Below, one piece after another: positions 1,974-21,995 of a stretch of DNA of 27,765 bases. A program made the translations under genes and the position numbers. Within the stretch, counting starts at the first letter, position 1. Each line of letters starts with the position of its first letter. The notes beneath the pieces are model-generated. The model was not told the origin of the DNA. It saw nothing but the letters and a program-made list of their open reading frames with translations, and made no database searches. The stretch comes from a virus, in the IMG/VR virus record IMGVR_UViG_3300025896_000156, positions 1 through 27,765 of that record, one strand, 5' to 3'.

Positions 1974-2695
1974 TATGCTGCACTCCATTGCATCGCGGCC
2001 TTGGCGGCCTCGTTCTGGTCTGACCAGTAAAAGGAATCGGTATTCAGGGGCATGTAGCGCATGGCCCGGTTGGGATCGGGGCAAACCCGCTTCCATCGCT
2101 CGATCATCTCGAAGGCGGTCAGCAGCTCCATCGCCCCCTTCACCGCATCGCAGCGGGTGAGGGTGAACCAGGCTGTTTTCTTCGGGGTGCCGTAGAGGAT
2201 GCGCGCCTGCTCCTGCCGCTCGCCGCTGTAAAGCCCTTGCTGGCGGATGTGGGACGGGGATGGGTCGCTCGGCAAGCGAAGGGTGGCCTTCAGATCCACC
2301 GAGAACCCCGGATAGACCAGATCGGGCTTCACGCTGATCTGATGCTCCAACTCTTCCAGGTAGACCCCGGACCAGGGCTGATAGGCGAGGGGCTTCCCGA
2401 GCGGGCGGAGAGCTTTGACGAACTGCCAAGCAATGTCGGCGGACGCATCGCGCCTCTCTCCGACTTCGCCGTGGCGGAGTTCGTCATACTTGCCCAGCGC
2501 GGCCTTCCTGATCTCGGCCTCCGGCATATCGTGGAGGATGCCCTGCCAAGCGCCCCATTCTGCGGCGGTGCCCATCGCGGTCCTTTCATTGTCCTCGCCC
2601 CAATGCTCGAAGCCGTAGCGCCACAGGAACGCGGACGGGCATTCAATGAACATGTTGCCCCCCGATGCGCTGTGACGGTACTTGGCGTAAAGCAC
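1973..2695 (-). CDS. PD-(D/E)XK exonuclease (RecB/Cas4-like)
   Basis: The 240-residue protein shows the order of a RecB-family nuclease. It opens with RHSASGGNMFIECPSAFLWR, the usual SxS...CP entry motif. A helix carries GTAAEWGAW. The active-site strands are KPDLVYPGFSVDLKAT, where the D of KPDL and the DxK of VDLKAT form the metal site. A later QQGLY motif matches the QxxxY helix of the family. The start is GTG at 2695, overlapping the upstream stop as TAGTG. It probably resects double-strand ends and hands single strands to the protein encoded just downstream. The family call is firm; the pairing is inferred from order. Confidence 0.85.
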   Translation of the reverse strand: MLYAKYRHSASGGNMFIECPSAFLWRYGFEHWGEDNERTAMGTAAEWGAWQGILHDMPEAEIRKAALGKYDELRHGEVGERRDASADIAWQFVKALRPLGKPLAYQPWSGVYLEELEHQISVKPDLVYPGFSVDLKATLRLPSDPSPSHIRQQGLYSGERQEQARILYGTPKKTAWFTLTRCDAVKGAMELLTAFEMIERWKRVCPDPNRAMRYMPLNTDSFYWSDQNEAAKAAMQWSAA

Positions 2696-2856
2696 TAGGC
2701 GGCCTCCATCTTCACGAGTTCGCGTCCGATCTCCGCCAGTTCTTCCCTCTGCTTTTGGGAAAGCTGGTTATGTTTCCCGATGAGCTCCCTTGCGTGTTCC
2801 GCGAAGGACCAGAGGGAGAGTTCAAGCATCTCTGAGGGGTTGGGGATGTGGTTCAT
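2695..2856 (-). CDS. Small helical protein (53 aa)
   Basis: The protein starts MNHIPNPSEMLELSL and is predicted to be almost entirely helical, with a Gln/Lys/Glu-rich second half. The ATG at 2856 overlaps the stop of the upstream gene as ATGA. The frame is open back to 3114, but that extension is Arg/Gly-rich and covers the upstream small genes, so I treat it as noise. Function unknown. Confidence 0.6.
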   Translation of the reverse strand: MNHIPNPSEMLELSLWSFAEHARELIGKHNQLSQKQREELAEIGRELVKMEAA

Positions 2857-3020
2857 GGCTGTTTCGTCCCCGCGCGAAGTGCGACGCGGATCGTCAGCCT
2901 GGTCTTTCGGATGCTTTGCAGCTCTTGTTCGCGCAGCGAGATGGCCTCGACGCGGTGCCAGTCCAGAACGTTCGTCAGTTCCGCCTCTGCCGCCCGCAGC
3001 GCGTCTATCAAGTCTTTCAT
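2853..3020 (-). CDS. Small coiled-coil protein (55 aa)
   Basis: The protein starts MKDLIDALRAAEAELTNVLD and has a heptad-like pattern of leucines and charged residues, suggesting one long helix or a coiled coil. I chose the ATG at 3020 because it overlaps the upstream stop as ATGA, with GAGG 11 nt upstream. An ATG at 3050 would add ten residues. Function unknown. Confidence 0.6.
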   Translation of the reverse strand: MKDLIDALRAAEAELTNVLDWHRVEAISLREQELQSIRKTRLTIRVALRAGTKQP

Positions 3021-4533: not shown

Positions 4534-5160
4534 CTATGCCCCCTCCAACAACTGCTTGAGCTTGCGCACCTGCCATTTGCGCTCAGCGTCGCTGGCAGCG
4601 ACCCCGGCAGCGGCCCCGGCAGCGTCCCTGGCAGCGGCCCTGGCAGCGGCCCAGGCAGCGCCCCTGGCAGCGTCACTGGCAGCGTCCCAGACAGCGGCCC
4701 AGGCAGCGTCCCAGGCAGCGCCCCTGGCAGCGTCCCTTTCCCCATCGGTGGCCTTGCCGTTCGCGAACGCTTCCGCGACCTTGATTGTGTTCCGCAGCGT
4801 TTCGACGTGCTTGGGATCGGCGTATTTCAGCGCGCGCTTGGCGCAGGCGCAAGCGAACAGCCGTGCCGTCCGGTCATTCCAGGCCGTGACCGGCTTGATC
4901 AGCCGCGCACGCTCCGCCACGGCCTTGTCGTCGCAGTCGATGATCTTGCCGGACGCCTCAACAACCCAGATCGTCGGGCCGAGCCACGTCAGCAGATCGC
5001 TTTCGTTCCGGCAGAAGTGATACCCGCGCTCGCACGGCTCTATGTCATCGATCTTCGGCATCCACTTGCCGGGCTTCGAGCCGCGCGGCAAATGCCACTG
5101 ACCAGAGCCGCCGTGAAAAGCCGCGCCATCCGCGTTCAGGACTTTGTAGCCAAGCATCAT
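4534..5160 (-). CDS. DUF7666-like protein with Ala-rich four-residue repeats
   Basis: Residues 1-75 match a domain common in phages, with YKVLNADGAAFHGG, WHLPRGSKPGKWMP, PCERGYHFC and LTWLGPTIWVVE; I recognise it as DUF7666-like. Residues 143-194 are thirteen strict four-residue units of the form x-A-A-x (DAAR, GAAW, DAAW and so on), followed by a basic helix KWQVRKLKQLL. The repeat would make a helix with an alanine stripe. Two ATG codons (5160 and 5157) are possible starts; the first overlaps the upstream stop as ATGA. Role unknown. Confidence 0.75.
   Translation of the reverse strand: MMLGYKVLNADGAAFHGGSGQWHLPRGSKPGKWMPKIDDIEPCERGYHFCRNESDLLTWLGPTIWVVEASGKIIDCDDKAVAERARLIKPVTAWNDRTARLFACACAKRALKYADPKHVETLRNTIKVAEAFANGKATDGERDAARGAAWDAAWAAVWDAASDAARGAAWAAARAAARDAAGAAAGVAASDAERKWQVRKLKQLLEGA
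4579..4734 (-). repeat. Tandem 12-bp repeat, about 13 units
   Basis: On the plus strand the unit is close to GGCAGCGGCCCT, repeated in frame with few changes. It encodes the x-A-A-x repeat of the DUF7666-like protein. Because the unit is a multiple of three and GC-rich, it also keeps the opposite strand open, producing a spurious Gly-Ser-Pro frame. The copy number could change by slippage without shifting the reading frame. Confidence 0.85.
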
Positions 5161-6752: not shown

Positions 6753-7259
6753 ATGTTTCATATTGCACAGCACCAAGCCGAGCATGGATCTGGCCCAACG
6801 CCTGATCAACATCTCCGCTGCATCGCCGTTCCCCTGAAAGCCGCACGTCACTGGCTGATCAGTCCCAATCCGAAAGTATCCATAGGCACTCTAGCGGGGC
6901 GGGCAGTCTCTACCGGATACATCCAGATCGGCATTCGCGGTCGGCATCACCTCGCGCACCGACTTGCGTGGCTTGTCACGCACGGCGCTTGGCCAACCCA
7001 GCAGATTGACCACATCAACCGAGATGCTGCGGACAATCGAATCTGCAATCTCCGCGATGTATCGCCATCAGCTAACCAGCGAAACAAAAACAAACAAGCG
7101 ACCGGCGTGTGTTTCCATAAGAAGACCGGCAAATGGATGGCCCAAATAGTTTTGCCGGTGAAAAGAAAAAAGTATCTCGGGCTTTATGAAACCCGAGAAA
7201 AAGCCCGCGCTGCCTTCGAGGCCGCAAGATCCCAGGAAGAGCTACGGATGCTTGGATGA
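6753..7259 (+). CDS. Free-standing HNH-AP2 homing-type endonuclease
   Basis: Residues 54-112 form an HNH_3-type nuclease domain: GYIQIGIRGRHHLAHRLAWL, then QIDHINRDAADNRICNLR with catalytic D86-H87 and N89. Residues 116-158 form an AP2-type DNA-binding domain, GVCFHKKTGKWMAQIV followed by KYLGLYETREKARAAFEAA. This order is typical of phage mobile HNH proteins. It sits in the early operon between the Cro-like gene and a DUF1902-like gene, with an ATGA junction downstream. The first 30 residues (MFHIAQHQAEHGSGPTPDQH) do not resemble the usual N-terminus, so the start may be degraded. No intron structure was seen around it. Confidence 0.85.
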   Translation: MFHIAQHQAEHGSGPTPDQHLRCIAVPLKAARHWLISPNPKVSIGTLAGRAVSTGYIQIGIRGRHHLAHRLAWLVTHGAWPTQQIDHINRDAADNRICNLRDVSPSANQRNKNKQATGVCFHKKTGKWMAQIVLPVKRKKYLGLYETREKARAAFEAARSQEELRMLG

Positions 7260-12588: not shown

Positions 12589-12891
12589 ATGTTTCAGAAG
12601 GGCCAGAGTGGCAACCCGGGTGGTCGCCGCAAAGAGAAGGTTTGGCGCAACGCCATTGAGCGCGCCATCAAGCGTTCCTCGAAGGAGGGAATGCAGGTGG
12701 TTGACGAGCTGGCGGACGCATTGATTCAGGCCGCGCTCGAAAGGGACGTGTCCGCCCTCAAGGAGATTGGCGACCGTCTGGACGGCAAGGTCCCGCAAGC
12801 CCTGATCGGTGGTGACGAGGACGACGCGCCTGTGTCGCTCCAGGTGATCGAACTCCGCGCCGTTTACCCGAAAGATGAAACAGGCGGTTGA
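12589..12891 (+). CDS. terS: Small terminase subunit-like protein (DUF5681)
   Basis: The 100-residue protein begins MFQKGQSGNPGGRRKEK, the signature of the DUF5681 domain found in many small-terminase-position proteins. A helical middle and KEIGDRLDGKVPQALIGGDE near the C-terminus follow, also typical. It lies directly before the large terminase and overlaps it by 17 nt. I chose the ATG at 12589 over a TTG at 12574. It would recognise phage DNA for packaging; the assignment rests on domain and position. Confidence 0.8.
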   Translation: MFQKGQSGNPGGRRKEKVWRNAIERAIKRSSKEGMQVVDELADALIQAALERDVSALKEIGDRLDGKVPQALIGGDEDDAPVSLQVIELRAVYPKDETGG

Positions 12892-14161
12892 TCTGCCGGC
12901 CAAGCTGGTCCCGGTATTCGAGGGGCCGGCGCTATATCGCGGGGCTTACGGCGGAAGAGGTTCGGCAAAGACCAGAACGTTCGCCAAGATGTCGGCGGTA
13001 TGGGGCGTGAGGTTCGCCCAAGCCAACATGCCTGGGGTTATCGTCTGCGGGCGTGAGTTCATGAACTCCCTGGATGACAGCTCGCTAGCCGAGGTCAAGG
13101 CGGCGATTCTGTCTGAGCCGTGGCTGGCGTCTCATTACGAAGTCGGGGAGAAGTTCGTCCGCACCCGGGACGGTCGGATCTACTACGCATTCATCGGCCT
13201 TCGCCACAACCTGGACAGCATCAAGTCCAAGGCCATGATCCGCCTGTTGTGGGTGGATGAGGCCGAGGCCGTCAGCGAGACGGCCTGGTACAAGGCAGAC
13301 AACACCGTCCGCGAGGATGGATCAGAGGTCTGGGTAACCTGGAACCCGGAGCGCAAGAACAGCGCCACGCACAAGCGGTTCCGCCTGGACCCGCCGCCGG
13401 AATCCAAAATCGTTGAGATGAACTGGCGGGATAACCCGTGGTTTCCCGACACCCTCAACAAGAAGCGCCTGGCCGACAAGGCAAAGCGACCGGACCAGTA
13501 TGAACACATCTGGGAAGGCGATTTCGTGACCGTGGTTGAGGGTGCCTACTTCGCCTCGTGCCTGAGTGAAGCCAAGGAGCGCATTACGAACGTCGCCAAA
13601 GACCCGCTGATGACCGTCAGGGCCTTTTGGGACATCGGCGGCACCGGAGCCAAGGCGGACGCCTGCGCCATCTGGATAGCCCAATTCGTGGGCAGGGAAA
13701 TCCGCGTGCTAGATTACCACGAGGCGGTTGGTCAGCCCCTTGCGGCGCATGTCGGCTGGCTGAGGGACAGGGGCTATGGAAACGCCCTCTGTGTCCTGCC
13801 GCATGACGGCTCGACCCACGACAGGGTGTACGACGTGTCCTACGAGAGTTCGCTGAAGGAGGCGGGTTTCGAGGTGAGCGTGGTTCCCAATCAAGGCCGT
13901 GGTGCCGCGAAGATGCGGATTGAAGCCGCGCGCAGGCTCTTTCCCTCAATCTGGTTCAACAAGGACACCACGGAAGCCGGGCGCGATGCCCTTGGCTGGT
14001 ATCACGAGAAACGCTCCGAGGATGACCGCAACATCGGGCTTGGGCCTGAGCATGACTGGTCTTCGCATGGCGCGGATGCGTTCGGCTTGATGTGCGTCGC
14101 CTATGAAGAGCCGCGAACCAAGAAGAAACCCCAGCGCCACGCGGGCGGGTGGATGTCGTGA
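12875..14161 (+). CDS. terL: Terminase large subunit
   Basis: This is the DNA-packaging motor ATPase and nuclease. Walker A is GGRGSAKT at residues 26-33, Walker B is LLWVDEAE at 124-131, and the coupling motif TWNP is at 155-158. The C-terminal nuclease domain has acidic residues at D253 (FWDIGGTG), D311 (LPHDGST) and D401 (HGADAF). The length of 428 residues fits the Terminase_3 family. The protein cuts concatemers and pumps DNA into the prohead through the portal encoded downstream. The reading frame is intact. Confidence 0.95.
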   Translation: MKQAVDLPAKLVPVFEGPALYRGAYGGRGSAKTRTFAKMSAVWGVRFAQANMPGVIVCGREFMNSLDDSSLAEVKAAILSEPWLASHYEVGEKFVRTRDGRIYYAFIGLRHNLDSIKSKAMIRLLWVDEAEAVSETAWYKADNTVREDGSEVWVTWNPERKNSATHKRFRLDPPPESKIVEMNWRDNPWFPDTLNKKRLADKAKRPDQYEHIWEGDFVTVVEGAYFASCLSEAKERITNVAKDPLMTVRAFWDIGGTGAKADACAIWIAQFVGREIRVLDYHEAVGQPLAAHVGWLRDRGYGNALCVLPHDGSTHDRVYDVSYESSLKEAGFEVSVVPNQGRGAAKMRIEAARRLFPSIWFNKDTTEAGRDALGWYHEKRSEDDRNIGLGPEHDWSSHGADAFGLMCVAYEEPRTKKKPQRHAGGWMS

Positions 14162-14328
14162 TGCGTCTTCCCCGCGCTAGACCACTGTTGGCGCGGGCCT
14201 TCGATGAAGACGACGAGCCTATCAGGATTGCAGAGCAGATCAGCCAGTCAGAAGCGCCGCCGGAGCCCGGCTTGGTGACGCGCCGCGCATGGCTGGACCC
14301 TATCGAGGCAGAGGCTAATGGCCGATAA
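14161..14328 (+). CDS. Hypothetical 55-aa protein between terminase and portal
   Basis: The frame reads MRLPRARPLLARAFDEDDEP and ends in WLDPIEAEANGR. It starts at a TGATG junction with the large terminase and overlaps the portal start by 11 nt. The N-terminus is basic and the middle acidic. Function unknown. Confidence 0.55.
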   Translation: MRLPRARPLLARAFDEDDEPIRIAEQISQSEAPPEPGLVTRRAWLDPIEAEANGR

Positions 14329-16528
14329 AGACGACCTGTCAGAGATCAGGGAGATCTACAAGGATTGCCAGAACGCCTGGTCCAAGAACCACGATCGTTT
14401 CCGCGAGGACTATCGGTTCTGCCGCCTTGGTGAGCAATGGCACGAGGCGGACAAGAAAGCCCGCAAGGAAGCCAACCGCCCATGCCTGACCATCAACAAG
14501 GTCAATCCGGTCGTTAAGCAGATCGTCAACGACGGGCGACAGAACAAACCCGCCATCAAGGTCCGCCCGGCTGACGACACAGCAGATCCCGAAACCGCCG
14601 AGGTGATGTCCGGCCTGATTCGGAACATCGAACAGACCTCCGGGGCGGACGCCGCATACGACACGGCTCTGGATCACGCCGCCTCTGGTGGCTTTGGCTT
14701 CCTCCGCGTTGTCATCGATCATGCCTATGACGACTCGTTTGACCTGGACATCCTCATCAAGCGCGTCAACAACCCGCTGAACGTGCTTGGCGACCCTTGG
14801 TCAACGGAAGTCGATAGCTCAGACTGGAATCACGCCTTTGTCACGGAAACCATGGCGCTTGACGTGTTCAAGCAGCGGTATCCCGATGCCGACCCCACGT
14901 CCTGGGATGCAGACAACCCGGATGTGAAGACCGACGACGGCGAGGACGTGACGGTTGCGGAGTATTGGTGCCGCAAGGATGTCGAGAAGACCATCGTCCG
15001 TCTGTCTGACGGGCATGTGATGGGCGAGGCGGAGTATGCGGCGCAAAAGGACGTGCTTGACGCCCTCGGGGTGACGGTCACGCAGTCCCGCAAGGTCAAG
15101 GCGAAGCGTGTCTATCAGAAGATTGTGAACGGCGGCGAAGTCCTTGTTGGGGAGAAGGACGAGAAGGGCAACTGGCCTGGCAAATACATCCCGATCATTC
15201 CCGTCTATGGCGATGAGATCCTTGATTCCGACACCGGGGAGCGGATTTTCGTCTCCGCGATTCACTACGCCAAAGACGCGCAGCGCATGTTCAACTACTG
15301 GCGCACGGTCACGACCGAACTGGTCGCGTTAGCCCCCAGGGTTCCCTATATCGGCCCTGAGGATGCGTTCAACGGCGAAGACTCCGCCAAGTGGGAGAGC
15401 GCCAACAACGGCAATTACGCTTACATCTCCTACAAGGGCGCGGTGGCTCCCCAGCGCCAGCCCATTGGCTCGGAAGTCCCCGCCGGGGCTCTACAGGAAG
15501 CACTGTCCGCCGCCGATGACGTGAAGGCCACCACGGGGCTTTACGACGCATCCCTTGGGGCGCGGTCGAATGAAACCTCCGGTGTCGCAATCGAGCGCCG
15601 GAAGATGGAAGGCGATACGGCGACCTTCAACTTCACCGACAACCTGTCGCGCGCCATTCGTCACACCGGGCGCATCCTCATTGACCTGATTCCGAAGGTC
15701 TACAAGCAGGACCGCGTAATCCGTGTGCTTGGTGAAGACGGCCAGGCCCAGAACGTCAAGCTCGGCCCAGCCCAGCCCACCCCAGAGGGCGTGAATCAGC
15801 CTGGTATGCCGAAAACCTACGCGGGCGTGTATGACCTCGCCGCCGGCAAGTATGACCTGGTGGTTGACAGCGGGCCGAGCTATTCCACGCGCCGCGTTGA
15901 GACTGCCGAGCAGATCATGGCGCTCATCCAGAACGCCCCCGATGTGGCCGTGAAGATTGGCGACATCCTGGCGAAGAACCTTGACTGGAAGGACGCGGAC
16001 CTTATTGCCGAGCGACTGAAGCCGTCCAGCGAACAGCAGATCCCCCCGGAGGTCCAGGCCCAGATCGAAGAGGGCAAGATGATGCTGGACAAGCTGAGCA
16101 AGGAGAACGAGCAGCTCCGCAACTCCGAACTCAAGGCCGCATCGGATTACGAGAAGGCCAAGACCGATCAGGCATCGAACGAGCTTGAGCGCCAGCGCCT
16201 TGCCCTTGAGCAAGCCCGCCTCCCGCTGGACGAGGTGCAGAAGCAGATTGAGCTTATTACGGCTCAAACCCAGCTCGTTCAGGCCCAAGCCTCCGCCAAG
16301 GCTATTACGACCGAAGCGGACGCCTCTGCGGGTGAGAAGACCGCCAACGCCAACGCCATGACGGAGTTTGCCCAGGCGGCGGCAATGCTCACCCAGGCCG
16401 CAGCCGCGATGTCTGCGGGTATCGCTGATCTACAGGTCAAGGTCAGTCAACCGAGAACCAAGCAGGGCCGGGCTATTAAGCTAAAGGACGGCTCTTGGGT
16501 CTTGGACGCGATGGAGGTTCAGGCGTAG
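14318..16528 (+). CDS. P22-type portal protein (736 aa)
   Basis: The portal is the dodecameric ring through which DNA enters and leaves the head. The sequence has the P22-portal pattern: YRFCRLGEQWHEADKKARKE, RPCLTINKVNPVVKQIVNDG, then SGGFGFLRVVIDHAYDDSFD and VNNPLNVLGDPWSTEVD, with GLYDASLGARSNETSGVAIE near residue 410. Residues about 575-700 form a long Gln/Ala/Glu-rich coiled coil, matching the barrel extension of P22-like portals. The length is close to P22 gp1 (about 725). The start overlaps the small upstream gene and has GAGGCTA before it. Confidence 0.95.
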   Translation: MADKDDLSEIREIYKDCQNAWSKNHDRFREDYRFCRLGEQWHEADKKARKEANRPCLTINKVNPVVKQIVNDGRQNKPAIKVRPADDTADPETAEVMSGLIRNIEQTSGADAAYDTALDHAASGGFGFLRVVIDHAYDDSFDLDILIKRVNNPLNVLGDPWSTEVDSSDWNHAFVTETMALDVFKQRYPDADPTSWDADNPDVKTDDGEDVTVAEYWCRKDVEKTIVRLSDGHVMGEAEYAAQKDVLDALGVTVTQSRKVKAKRVYQKIVNGGEVLVGEKDEKGNWPGKYIPIIPVYGDEILDSDTGERIFVSAIHYAKDAQRMFNYWRTVTTELVALAPRVPYIGPEDAFNGEDSAKWESANNGNYAYISYKGAVAPQRQPIGSEVPAGALQEALSAADDVKATTGLYDASLGARSNETSGVAIERRKMEGDTATFNFTDNLSRAIRHTGRILIDLIPKVYKQDRVIRVLGEDGQAQNVKLGPAQPTPEGVNQPGMPKTYAGVYDLAAGKYDLVVDSGPSYSTRRVETAEQIMALIQNAPDVAVKIGDILAKNLDWKDADLIAERLKPSSEQQIPPEVQAQIEEGKMMLDKLSKENEQLRNSELKAASDYEKAKTDQASNELERQRLALEQARLPLDEVQKQIELITAQTQLVQAQASAKAITTEADASAGEKTANANAMTEFAQAAAMLTQAAAAMSAGIADLQVKVSQPRTKQGRAIKLKDGSWVLDAMEVQA

Positions 16529-19003: not shown

Positions 19004-19888
19004 ATGCACATCGATGATACCGACACCAATCCGGCGGCTGGCGACACCGAGACGGTGGACACTGGCGAGGAAGTGTTAGAGCCCGGCGGCGAAGCCGAAG
19101 GCACGGAATCGGAAGCCCCTGAAGGCCAAACCGAGGAAGAGCTTGAGGAGATCGAACGCGAGGGCAAAAAGGCCCGCATCCCGAAGTGGCTCAAGCCAGA
19201 ACTGATGATGCAGGCGGACTACACTCGGAAGACCCAAGAGGTTGCCGAGACGCGCAAGGCGTATGAGGCCCGACAGGCCCAGCTTGCCGAGCGTGAAAAG
19301 CAGTTCAACGCCGACACGGAAGAGCGGGTGGCGCTCCACGCGCTCACCAAGGCGATTGAGCAATACGAAAACATCAATTGGGCGCAGCTCGAACAGCAAA
19401 ACTGGCAGCTTGCACAAAGCAAGTACCGGGAACTGAACGAGATGCGCAACGCTGCGGGCCGCCTTCAATACGGCCTGGAGCAGAAAGCGGCACAGCGCCA
19501 GCAGGAGGCGGAGCGCGAACGCGCCAACCGCCTTCGTGAAAGGGACGCAAACGCCGCGAAGATGATTCCGGGGTTCAACCCGGCCCTGTTGAGCAAGATC
19601 CACGACTACGCCACGTCCGACGGCTACACGGCTGAAGAAGTCCAGTCGATTCAGGACGCGCGTTTTCTGAAGACACTCAACGAAGCAAGGCTGTGGCGAG
19701 AACACCAGGCGAAAGCCAAAGCAGCGGCGGCAACCGCCAAGCAGCAAGAAGAGCCAGTCCCATCCGCGACACCCACGGTTTCCACCCGTAAGCCACCGGA
19801 GCGCCTCACCGCGTCCCTGGCGAAGGAGAACGCCGAAAAGTGGATTGAGATGCGGAACAAGCAACTCGCAGCGAGACGGGGCCGCTAA
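19004..19888 (+). CDS. Head scaffolding protein (294 aa)
   Basis: The protein is highly charged and helical throughout. The N-terminal 50 residues are acidic (DTETVDTGEEVLEPGGEAEG). RIPKWLKPELMMQADYTRKT marks the start of a coiled coil rich in Q, E, R and A. A small domain near residues 185-225 reads MIPGFNPALLSKIHDYATSD, then a linker leads to a basic C-terminal helix (KWIEMRNKQLAARRGR). A basic C-terminus just before the coat gene is typical of P22-type scaffolds, where it contacts coat protein. GGAG precedes the ATG. Confidence 0.8.
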   Translation: MHIDDTDTNPAAGDTETVDTGEEVLEPGGEAEGTESEAPEGQTEEELEEIEREGKKARIPKWLKPELMMQADYTRKTQEVAETRKAYEARQAQLAEREKQFNADTEERVALHALTKAIEQYENINWAQLEQQNWQLAQSKYRELNEMRNAAGRLQYGLEQKAAQRQQEAERERANRLRERDANAAKMIPGFNPALLSKIHDYATSDGYTAEEVQSIQDARFLKTLNEARLWREHQAKAKAAAATAKQQEEPVPSATPTVSTRKPPERLTASLAKENAEKWIEMRNKQLAARRGR

Positions 19889-19945: not shown

Positions 19946-20026
19946 ATGGCGAACTCACTCATCACTGTTGATGAGCTGACCGCTGAAACCCTGCGCGTCC
20001 TGCATCAGGAGTGCAATTTCATCGGT
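19946..20026 (+). CDS. Coat protein, exon 1 (27 codons)
   Basis: The frame starts MANSLITVDELTAETLRVLH and ends QECNFIG before the intron. This is the typical N-terminus of P22-type coat proteins. Read on without splicing, the next codon is a TAA stop, so the exon alone makes no useful protein. Joined to 20859-21995 it gives a continuous coat of 405 residues. The last exon base is T (20026), as required at a group I 5' splice site. Confidence 0.9.
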
Positions 20027-20858
20027 TAACCTCAGCCGCTTTGCGTCGAAAGGCGCATCGAAAACGTTGTGAATTCGGGGGAAATCTCGTACATTGATTG
20101 CCGGGGCGAATCAACCGGCGGTAGTCAGTGAGCAAGACAATCCCGAGCCAAGCTTTGAGGTGGGAGAGGCTTCAGGCCAATCCCACGTGCAGAAAATGCG
20201 GAGTGACTAAAACCGTAGCCGACTTCCCGAGAAGGGCGGTCGATTACTCTTGCAACGAGTGCCGAAACGCGAGACAGCGCGAGGTCGCTCGGGCGAAGAA
20301 GGCAGCGATGACCGAGGAAGAGTGGCGGGCTCACCGCGCTCTGGTCAACGCGAACGCCAATAAGGCGCGGGCTCTTAGAATTGCCCGTATGACCCCGGAT
20401 GCCCTTGCGGCCTTTCGAGCGCGAGACAACGCAAGGAACCTTGCGGCTCGCAACAGCGTCCGCGATGTCGTCTACAATGCCTACGGCGGCTATCGTTGCA
20501 ATTGCTGCGGCGAAGATGAGCGGAGATTTCTCAGTATCGACCATGTGAACAACGATGGTGCTGCGCACCGTAGGGCACACGGTCACACGACGGGCGAGAA
20601 GATGCACCGTTGGTTGATACGAGAGGGTTTCCCGAGTGGGTTTCAGGTTCTCTGCATGAACTGCCAATGGGGCAAGCGCAATAACAATGGCGTTTGTCCC
20701 CACAAAGAAGGTGTAACGACTATCCCGCAGGGGAGTAGGGCCAAGCGGCCCGAAGCGCAACGCACCCATATTGGGTGATGATATAGTCTGCTCTGCATCG
20801 TGAGGTGCAGCAGCCCGCAAGGGCGGTCGTGGCTTAGCGATCCACGGCGAACACAAGG
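20027..20858 (+). ncRNA. Group I self-splicing intron in the coat gene
   Basis: The exon end CGGU pairs with GCCG at 20035-20038 (P1, with a U-G pair at the splice site). P2 is a stem TGCGTC/GGCGCA closed by GAAA (20042-20057). The core elements P (about 20074-20088), Q (AATCCCGAGCCAAGC, 20139-20153), R (GTGTAACGACTATC, 20711-20724) and S (ATGATATAGTCT, 20778-20789) match group I consensus, and P7 forms by GACTAT with ATAGTC. Three 3' stems follow: CTGCA/TGCAG, GCCC-GCAA-GGGC and CGTGG/CCACG. The intron ends with G at 20858. Splicing restores the coat reading frame. Confidence 0.92.
20128..20778 (+). CDS. Intron-encoded HNH homing endonuclease (216 aa)
   Basis: Residues 21-45 form a zinc finger (C21, C24, C42, C45). 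Residues 116-193 form the HNH nuclease, with CNCCGEDERRFLSIDHVNND containing catalytic D138-H139 and zinc ligands C124 and C127, then VLCMNCQWGKRNNNGVCPHK with C176, C179, N178 and H192. This is the standard type of intron-associated HNH protein and would cut an intronless coat allele to spread the intron. The start is GTG 20128, with TTG 20155 as an alternative. The gene overlaps the Q and R elements of the ribozyme, and its stop overlaps the beginning of S. Confidence 0.92.
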   Translation: MSKTIPSQALRWERLQANPTCRKCGVTKTVADFPRRAVDYSCNECRNARQREVARAKKAAMTEEEWRAHRALVNANANKARALRIARMTPDALAAFRARDNARNLAARNSVRDVVYNAYGGYRCNCCGEDERRFLSIDHVNNDGAAHRRAHGHTTGEKMHRWLIREGFPSGFQVLCMNCQWGKRNNNGVCPHKEGVTTIPQGSRAKRPEAQRTHIG

Positions 20859-21995
20859 ACCATCAACAAGCAGTACGACCCCTCGTTTGCGAAGGAAGGT
20901 GCCAAGATCGGCTCCAGCCTCCGCATCCGCAAGCCCAACCAGTACACCGTCCGCACTGGCAAGGTGTTGGACGTTCAGCACCAGGACGAGAAGTACGAAA
21001 CCCTGACCGTCAGCACCCAGAAGGGTGTGGACATGGTGTTCGACTCCTCGGAACTGACCCTCTCGATTGACCGCTTCTCGGAGCGTTACATCGTCCCGGC
21101 TGCCAAGGTGCTGGCGGCCAACATCGAAGCCGATGCGATGTCCATGAAGCTGGACATCTACAACCAGGTGTTCCCCGGCACCGCGACTGCGGCGTTGGAC
21201 CTGGAAACCATCGGCAAGGCGCGTCGCGTCCTCGTTGACAACCTGGTTCCGCGCGGTAGCTGGAAGGCCAACCTCCAGCCCCGTCAGACCCAGGACATCA
21301 TCAAGGACGGCAAGGCGCTGTTCCACTCCTCGGCGGAGATCAAGGAGCAGTATCTGGAAGGCATGGTTGGCCGCACGGCTGGCTTTGACTTCTACGAGAA
21401 CGCCACTTGGACCCGTCACACCCAGGGCGCTGGCAACGGTTCGTACACGACCGACACCCGCACCTCTGCGTGGCCGAACTCCTCGACCCCGGTGACTTCG
21501 ATCACCGTGGCCTCGGGCTCGGGCGCGCTGGCGGATGGCGACGTGTTCACCATCGCCAACGTCTACCGCGTCAACCCGGAGACCAAGGCCAACACCGGAG
21601 AGTTGCAACAGTTCATCGTGACTGCCGCGACCGCCTCGGGTGCTGGCTCCTGGTCGATCAGCCCGTCCATCATCCTGGCCGGCCCGCGTCAGAACGTGAC
21701 TGTCACCAGCACGTCGGCCACGGCGAGCATCACGATGGGCACCACCGCCTCCAAGAACTATGACGAGGGCCTGGCTTATCACCCGGACTTCGCCACGTTC
21801 GCAACGGCGGACCTGATCATGCCGGACGGCGTGGACTTCAAGTCCCGCAAGGTGGTGGACGGCATTTCGATGCGTGTCGTGCGCCAGTACGACATCAACA
21901 ACGACCAGATGCCGATGCGTATCGACATCCTCTACGGCTACAAGGTGCTTCGCCCCGAGCTGGCGGTGCGCGTTTGCAGCCGCACCGACGCGTAA
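20859..21995 (+). CDS. P22-type major coat protein, exon 2
   Basis: The exon begins TINKQYDPSFAKEGAKIGSS, which directly continues NFIG of exon 1. Later P22-coat landmarks are VRTGKVLDVQHQDEKYETLT, GVDMVFDSSELTLSIDRFSE and RYIVPAAKVLAANIEADAMS. Residues about 165-285 of the joined protein are a Ser/Thr/Gly-rich beta domain corresponding to the inserted I-domain region. The end is MRIDILYGYKVLRPELAVRV. The exon has no start codon of its own at the right place; a caller would pick GTG 20964 and lose the N-terminus. It forms the icosahedral head with the scaffold encoded upstream. Confidence 0.93.
   Translation, partial: TINKQYDPSFAKEGAKIGSSLRIRKPNQYTVRTGKVLDVQHQDEKYETLTVSTQKGVDMVFDSSELTLSIDRFSERYIVPAAKVLAANIEADAMSMKLDIYNQVFPGTATAALDLETIGKARRVLVDNLVPRGSWKANLQPRQTQDIIKDGKALFHSSAEIKEQYLEGMVGRTAGFDFYENATWTRHTQGAGNGSYTTDTRTSAWPNSSTPVTSITVASGSGALADGDVFTIANVYRVNPETKANTGELQQFIVTAATASGAGSWSISPSIILAGPRQNVTVTSTSATASITMGTTASKNYDEGLAYHPDFATFATADLIMPDGVDFKSRKVVDGISMRVVRQYDINNDQMPMRIDILYGYKVLRPELAVRVCSRTDA

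Follow-up and report, generated by a model that had tools for sequence, protein, structure and literature searches.

The analyzed window is a 27,765-nt stretch of viral DNA (IMG/VR record IMGVR_UViG_3300025896_000156), which carries a head gene module on the plus strand. The module includes the genes of a terminase large subunit (12875-14161; PF04466, E=5e-19), a P22-like portal protein (14318-16528; PF16510, E=7e-175), and a probable scaffolding protein (19004-19888) located directly upstream of the coat gene. No significant family match was obtained for the last of these, which is assigned by position, in analogy to records where a scaffold gene is annotated at the same place. The coat gene itself is split into two plus-strand exons. 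Exon 1 (19946-20026; MANSLITVDELTAETLRVLHQECNFIG) covers codons 1-27 from the ATG to a T at 20026, and its frame then meets a TAA at 20027-20029. Exon 2 (20859-21995), containing codons 28-405 and the stop codon, starts after a G at 20858. These ends, which the original prediction had proposed, are exact in the sequence, and joining of the two exons yielded a stop-free open reading frame of 405 amino acids.

We then compared the coat protein with known families. The P22_CoatProtein model PF11651 matched exon 2 with E=1.5e-30 and 106.8 bits (cut-off 24), in agreement with the predicted uninterrupted P22-type coat. Two solved chains described as "Putative coat protein," 8skg (E=0.0015) and 6mnt (E=0.0036), were also matched in phmmer searches. 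The product is thus predicted to be a P22-type coat protein with the HK97 fold, encoded inside a P22-like head module. In approximately 28 intron-free relatives, the motif N-F-[IV]-G-[ST]-I-N-x-x-Y-D, with slight deviations in some, runs uninterrupted across the position of the junction, as expected if NFIG is joined directly to TINKQYD. Three N-terminal residues of this region, G27, N30, and Y33, were invariant in the relatives. When only the downstream part was called, the coat began at a GTG codon at 20964 and had 343 amino acids, that is, the loss of 62 residues that had been anticipated for automatic annotation. Intron-split capsid genes of this type are mis-annotated as truncated ones in this way. 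A 41.6 kb sister contig in IMG/VR was identical to the window at all 9134 of the 9134 bases compared. Its coat gene is also split and occurs as a single copy, and no second copy of the coat gene was found on this contig.

The two exons are separated by an 832-nt insert (20027-20858, plus strand) that begins with UAA, the in-frame stop, and ends with G. The Rfam group I intron model RF00028 matched 20017-20810 with 41.5 bits and E=5.7e-9 when 1 kb was searched at a relaxed threshold. The curated gathering cut-off of this model is 50 bits, and the search of the window at the gathering score returned no match. The match to the group I model was highly significant, but its score stayed below the gathering value, and routine annotation misses the intron for this reason. 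The same model gave 68-100 bits for several copies of the same lineage that have no internal endonuclease gene, and several endonuclease-carrying copies were missed at the Rfam cut-off.

The secondary structure elements were assigned as follows, all on the plus strand. P1 (20023-20038) pairs the exon sequence CGGU (20023-20026) with the guide GCCG (20035-20038), placing a U.G pair at the splice site; it is short, consisting of four pairs and one U-A. A clear P10 could not be identified in this intron. P2 (20043-20056) is the hairpin GCGUC-GAAA-GGCGC. The 5' strand of P3 (20065-20071, CGUUGUG) has its partner CGCAACG at 20756-20762, and P4, in which 20074-20079 is paired with 20142-20147, encloses P5 (20074-20147). 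Comparative alignment located the 3' strand of P6, J6/7, and the 5' strand of P7 at 20710-20722 (GGUGUAACGACUA), the P7.1 and P7.2 hairpins at 20723-20751, and the P9, P9.1, and P9.2 hairpins at 20793-20846. The segment 20756-20788 contains the 3' strand of P3, the P8 hairpin (20763-20777), and the 3' strand of P7 (20784-20788). As shown by these assignments, the core helices P3-P8 and the guanosine site in P7 are all present in the correct order, as are the U.G of P1 at the 5' splice site and G20858 as the last intron base. The length, the GAAA-capped P2, the U.G in P1, and the three 3' hairpins described originally were all recovered. P7.1 and P7.2, which lie between P7 and P3, were paired in all nine introns aligned in this study; such a pair of hairpins at this position is what we take to define subgroup IA, and the label IA-type is used here on that basis.

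In the Rfam alignment, the 5' strand of P7 (GACUA) fell at approximately 20205-20209, within endonuclease codons. This placement was rejected, since the comparative alignment gave 20718-20722, and the Rfam placement of P1 in these introns was likewise set aside for the comparative one. The position of P7 at 20718-20722 puts the endonuclease gene inside the P6 loop. This gene (20128-20778, plus strand) encodes 216 amino acids from a GTG start. Its frame opens at GTG 20128 in P5 and ends in P8, thereby overlapping P4', P6, P7, P7.1, P7.2, P3', and P8. The product contains a zinc-ribbon/HNH motif and matched PHROG 2255, HNH endonuclease (E=1.2e-14), as well as PHROG 1035, endonuclease VII (E=9e-12). 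The HNH models of Pfam and NCBIfam did not match the 216-residue product, and no relatives with solved structures were found by sequence. As a query against viral contigs, it recovered nothing beyond the window's own sister contig. The intronic HNH endonuclease gene that had been predicted is nevertheless substantiated by the PHROG 2255 match and by orthologues in the same-site introns of two other phages, L175 and L289.

A search with an intronic pattern identified L175, together with contigs of several other metagenomes, as having an 837-nt intron at exactly the window's site. The coat of L175 is 47% identical in amino acids to that of the window, and its endonuclease is about 52-53% identical. 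The third carrier, L289, was recovered with the L175 endonuclease as a query; its intron is 842 nt long, and its coat and endonuclease are about 48% and 51% identical to those of the window. All three introns start with UAA, a stop for the exon 1 frame, and the joined coats of L175 and L289 are intact. As regards the endonuclease starts, the L175 frame has no ATG, GTG, or TTG ahead of the zinc-ribbon segment, and an ATG start is possible in the P5 loop of L289.

The pairing was retained among the three introns by base changes on both sides. P1 changed in a compensatory manner from CGGU:GCCG in the window to CAGU:GCUG in L175, and P3 from CGUUGUG:CGCAACG to CGCUGUG:CGCAGCG and CAUUGUG:CGCAAUG over the three carriers. 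In P7, GACUA:UAGUC of the window is GACCA:UGGUC in L289, a compensatory exchange of U-A for C-G. The loop of P2 stays GNRA, with GUAA and GCAA caps in L289 and L175, and the stem differs each time.

The cores of the window intron and eight relatives were also aligned after removal of the endonuclease gene. Over P2, P3, P4, P6, P7, P7.1, P7.2, P8, P9, P9.1, and P9.2, 468 of 498 cells were paired (94%), and compensatory changes were observed in 38 of 56 pairs. When the partners were slid by 1-3 columns as a control, only 31-41% of the cells were paired and 8-15 pairs were compensatory. P2 and P8 were the most variable helices. Furthermore, the last 150 nt were 71-79% identical to introns in replication genes of phages of Enterobacteria, Klebsiella, and Xanthomonas, and the similarity broke off at the 3' splice site of the window.

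These results bear on two other explanations of the split gene. One is that the insertion of the endonuclease killed the coat, which would be a broken remnant in a phage that is defective or uses another coat; the stop in exon 1 and a longest downstream frame shortened by 62 residues would fit this. However, both exons are intact and come into frame on joining, compensatory changes conserve the intron core, the same site is filled in two other phages whose joined coats are intact, and the 41.6 kb contig holds no other coat. We consider a broken remnant highly improbable. The other is that translation rescues the coat with no RNA splicing, either by ribosomes bypassing the insert or by an internal start for exon 2, for which the GTG at 20964 is available. 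Gene 60 of phage T4 is a known case of translational bypassing. To our knowledge, however, skipping 832 nt that include a ribozyme core would be far past any known bypass, internal initiation would drop the invariant G27, N30, and Y33, and the insert is fully accounted for by a covarying group I core. Translational rescue of either kind therefore appears extremely unlikely.

We thus propose, with a probability of roughly 95% as judged from sequence comparison, that a mobile IA-type group I intron with an HNH gene in its P6 loop splits this P22-type (podovirus-like) coat gene after codon 27, is spliced out, and spreads by homing. In the proposed mechanism, the pre-mRNA would fold into a ribozyme, and exogenous guanosine bound at P7 would attack the U.G of P1. 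The freed exon 1 would then attack after the terminal G at 20858, giving a continuous mRNA for the 405-residue coat. The UAA that opens the intron may halt ribosomes before the core is unwound. The endonuclease would cut intron-free coat alleles at the stretch coding for a highly conserved part of the N-terminus, and repair from an intron-bearing allele would spread the intron. Catalysis, DNA cleavage, and the dependence of head assembly on splicing are inferred here. That splicing is needed for an intact coat, as originally suggested, is supported by the covariation, the exact empty alleles described below, the orthologous introns at the same site in two other coat lineages, and the single coat gene on the sister contig. 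Because no other late phage protein is made in such abundance as the capsid protein, a coat gene would tolerate an intron only if splicing were very efficient, and the coat intron is a good system for studying splicing coupled to late expression.

Intron-free alleles of the same genes were also identified. L062 shows 99.0% protein and 87.6% DNA identity to the joined coat of L289, with its junction exactly at the window's site, and L276 is 86.8% identical in amino acids to the L175 coat. For the window's own coat, no near-identical empty allele was found, the nearest intron-free coat being 53% identical. The designation as a group I intron with exact splice sites was upheld by such exact empty alleles, together with the covariation and the orthologous introns at the same site in two coat lineages. 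The last exon base was T in three of three carriers compared with 28 of 135 intron-free loci, which is explained by the requirement of the U.G of P1 for a T. In a tree of 109 coat proteins, the three carriers were scattered among intron-free coats, a sample size at which the shuffle test is powerless. Taken alone, this tree may also be compatible with an ancient presence followed by many losses. The T-ending exons, the scattered carriers, and the empty alleles together form a pattern of homing, and this distribution supports mobility. The same-site carriers and near-identical intron-free alleles represent ready-made homing pairs.

As a possible addition to homing, the intron might persist by benefiting its carrier, with the endonuclease attacking the coat genes of intron-free relatives during co-infection, rather than as a merely selfish element. 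The intron endonuclease of PhiPA3, which has been shown to act in this way, is a precedent (PMC11620839, discussed in PMC11878797). The recurrence of the intron in a gene that is late, essential, and highly conserved would suit this idea, as would the existence of near-identical intron-free rivals such as L062 (99.0% in amino acids). Nevertheless, copies in coat or head genes that have no endonuclease gene (L032, L322, and L196) indicate that these introns persist without the nuclease too, and we regard a carrier benefit as possible but less likely than not.

Introns were also detected elsewhere in P22-type coats. L013 and L014 contain a different coat intron (64.7 bits), inserted 16 nt farther downstream than that of the window, with the P1 CGUGAGU:GCUCACG and, by eye, an HNH-like gene in another loop. 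The intron-free L012 is 99.2% identical to this coat; splice sites for L013 near the window's site were ruled out by the P1 and by this 99% identical allele. The coat gene of MW202674 (L032) has an insert of 268 nt near codon 85, which carries no endonuclease gene and had no Rfam group I match. It shows a P1 of eight pairs with a U.G (AUGUGGAU:GUCCACAU), a terminal G, a P7-like pair ACGACUA/GAUAGUC, and a fold z of -3.0, and the intron-free MW202520 is 87.7% identical to its coat. We accept this insert as a probable group I intron on the basis of the P1, the terminal G, the P7-like pair, the fold, and the empty allele, with less confidence in its subgroup. L322, a diverged P22-type coat, contains an intron of 72.1 bits without an endonuclease gene, located approximately near the window's site. 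Group I introns were thus found in at least five coat lineages of the P22-type family. The extra-length coat matches of L059 and L065-L067 were rejected as introns, as part of the N-terminus is present there in an extra copy that directly precedes an intact coat; the duplicated part is about residues 6-61 in L059, L065, L066, and L067, and also 73-118 in L059.

Next, the host genes of the intron lineage were surveyed by two scans of IMG/VR with patterns running from P7 to P9. These patterns lie entirely inside the intron, and the sample of host genes is therefore unbiased by exons. Among the matches listed, the first scan found major head proteins of several families in 27 of 57 usable 3' exons and 9 of 23 clusters, and the other hosts included DNA polymerase, RNA polymerase, primase-helicase, tail sheath, terminase, portal, and thymidylate synthase. 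The second scan, covering 80 of 101 stretches, gave major head proteins in 40 of 53 usable exons and 5 of 15 clusters. When pooled, the major head protein was the largest host class among the matches listed, with 67 of 110 downstream exons and 14 of 38 clusters. Both samples are redundant, and the cluster counts (14/38) are the fairer ones, because two clusters of relatives contribute 35 of the 40 head exons of the second scan. For several loci (L196, L157, L201, L172, L368/L325, and L363), inspection by eye also showed the capsid exons on the upstream side. The description of P22-type coat genes as unusual hosts is not supported, given at least five intron-carrying coat lineages and head genes as the largest class among the matches listed. 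Regarding individual head loci, L314 (MCP exon 2260-3000, minus strand) has three group I introns of 65-84 bits in or next to the head gene, and L368 has two at the head gene, the upstream one of which is absent from its near relative L325.

Phage introns have been described as favoring genes of nucleotide and DNA metabolism, the reason for which is stated to be an open question (PMC11878797; PMC12350094). The prevalence of head genes among the hosts observed here differs from this view, and the counts bear on the question of why phage introns seemed confined to such genes (PMC11878797; PMC12350094). We consider it rather probable that major capsid genes are favored hosts of this IA-type lineage in uncultivated phages, that the nucleases target conserved codons of the N-terminus, and that P22-type coats have been repeatedly re-invaded. 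If so, the preference for nucleotide and DNA metabolism genes in the literature would mirror which phages were cultured.

Capsid-gene introns as a kind are already known (PMC3706429, PMC7886860). In the Cluster J mycobacteriophage LittleE, splicing of an 819-nt intron in the major capsid gene was shown by RT-PCR and N-terminal protein sequencing, and lactococcal phage Tuc2009 is cited alongside as another case (PMC3706429). Similar to the window, the LittleE intron contains a homing endonuclease, its exon ends with U, and the intron ends with G; however, LittleE is an actinobacterial phage with an HK97-type capsid and a protease-processed N-terminus, and its endonuclease is LAGLIDADG-related and on the opposite strand (PMC3706429). 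Group I introns have also been predicted in the MCP genes of crAss-like phages of the Delta and Zeta groups, with several in one gene in one case (PMC7886860). These phages are likewise uncultivated and have the introns in their major capsid genes, although they are large gut phages of Bacteroidota with a different capsid family, and, unlike here, the consulted passages of PMC7886860 do not describe empty alleles site by site. Our search of the open-licence literature did not find an earlier description of a P22-type coat gene with an intron, or of MCP genes being a leading host class.

The introns of ULINTec6, PhAPEC5, CP1, and Klebsiella IME184 belong to the same ribozyme lineage as that of the window, with 71-79% identity over the last 150 nt, the same set of P7.1, P7.2, P9, P9.1, and P9.2, and the same 3' end point. 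In contrast, their hosts are DNA polymerase, primase-helicase, and similar replication genes, and their endonucleases are different or absent. Another related case is Manatee Spring phage ctDrO704 (MW202512.1; L038), where an intron of 627 nt from the same lineage as that of the window, with the P1 CUUGGAU:GUUCAAG and the same 3' end GAACACAAGG, splits the N-terminal coding region of the major capsid gene. Its HNH gene is related to that of the window (51% amino acid identity over 43% of the protein), and the parts are annotated as separate ORFs. Unlike the window's coat, this capsid is identified by the annotation "major capsid protein" alone, and by eye it resembles the N4 gp56 type. The "icea protein" annotated beside it at 1089-1715 is the intron endonuclease.

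Two other genes of the window were also noted. A second, free-standing homing-type endonuclease gene, unrelated to that of the intron, is located at 6753-7259 on the plus strand; its product matched HNH_3 (PF13392, E=2e-12) and AP2 (PF00847, E=2e-6, below the PF00847 cut-off). On the minus strand, 4534-5160 encodes a DUF7666 protein with a long, alanine-rich tail of imperfect repeats (AAWDAAWAAVWDAASDAARG...).
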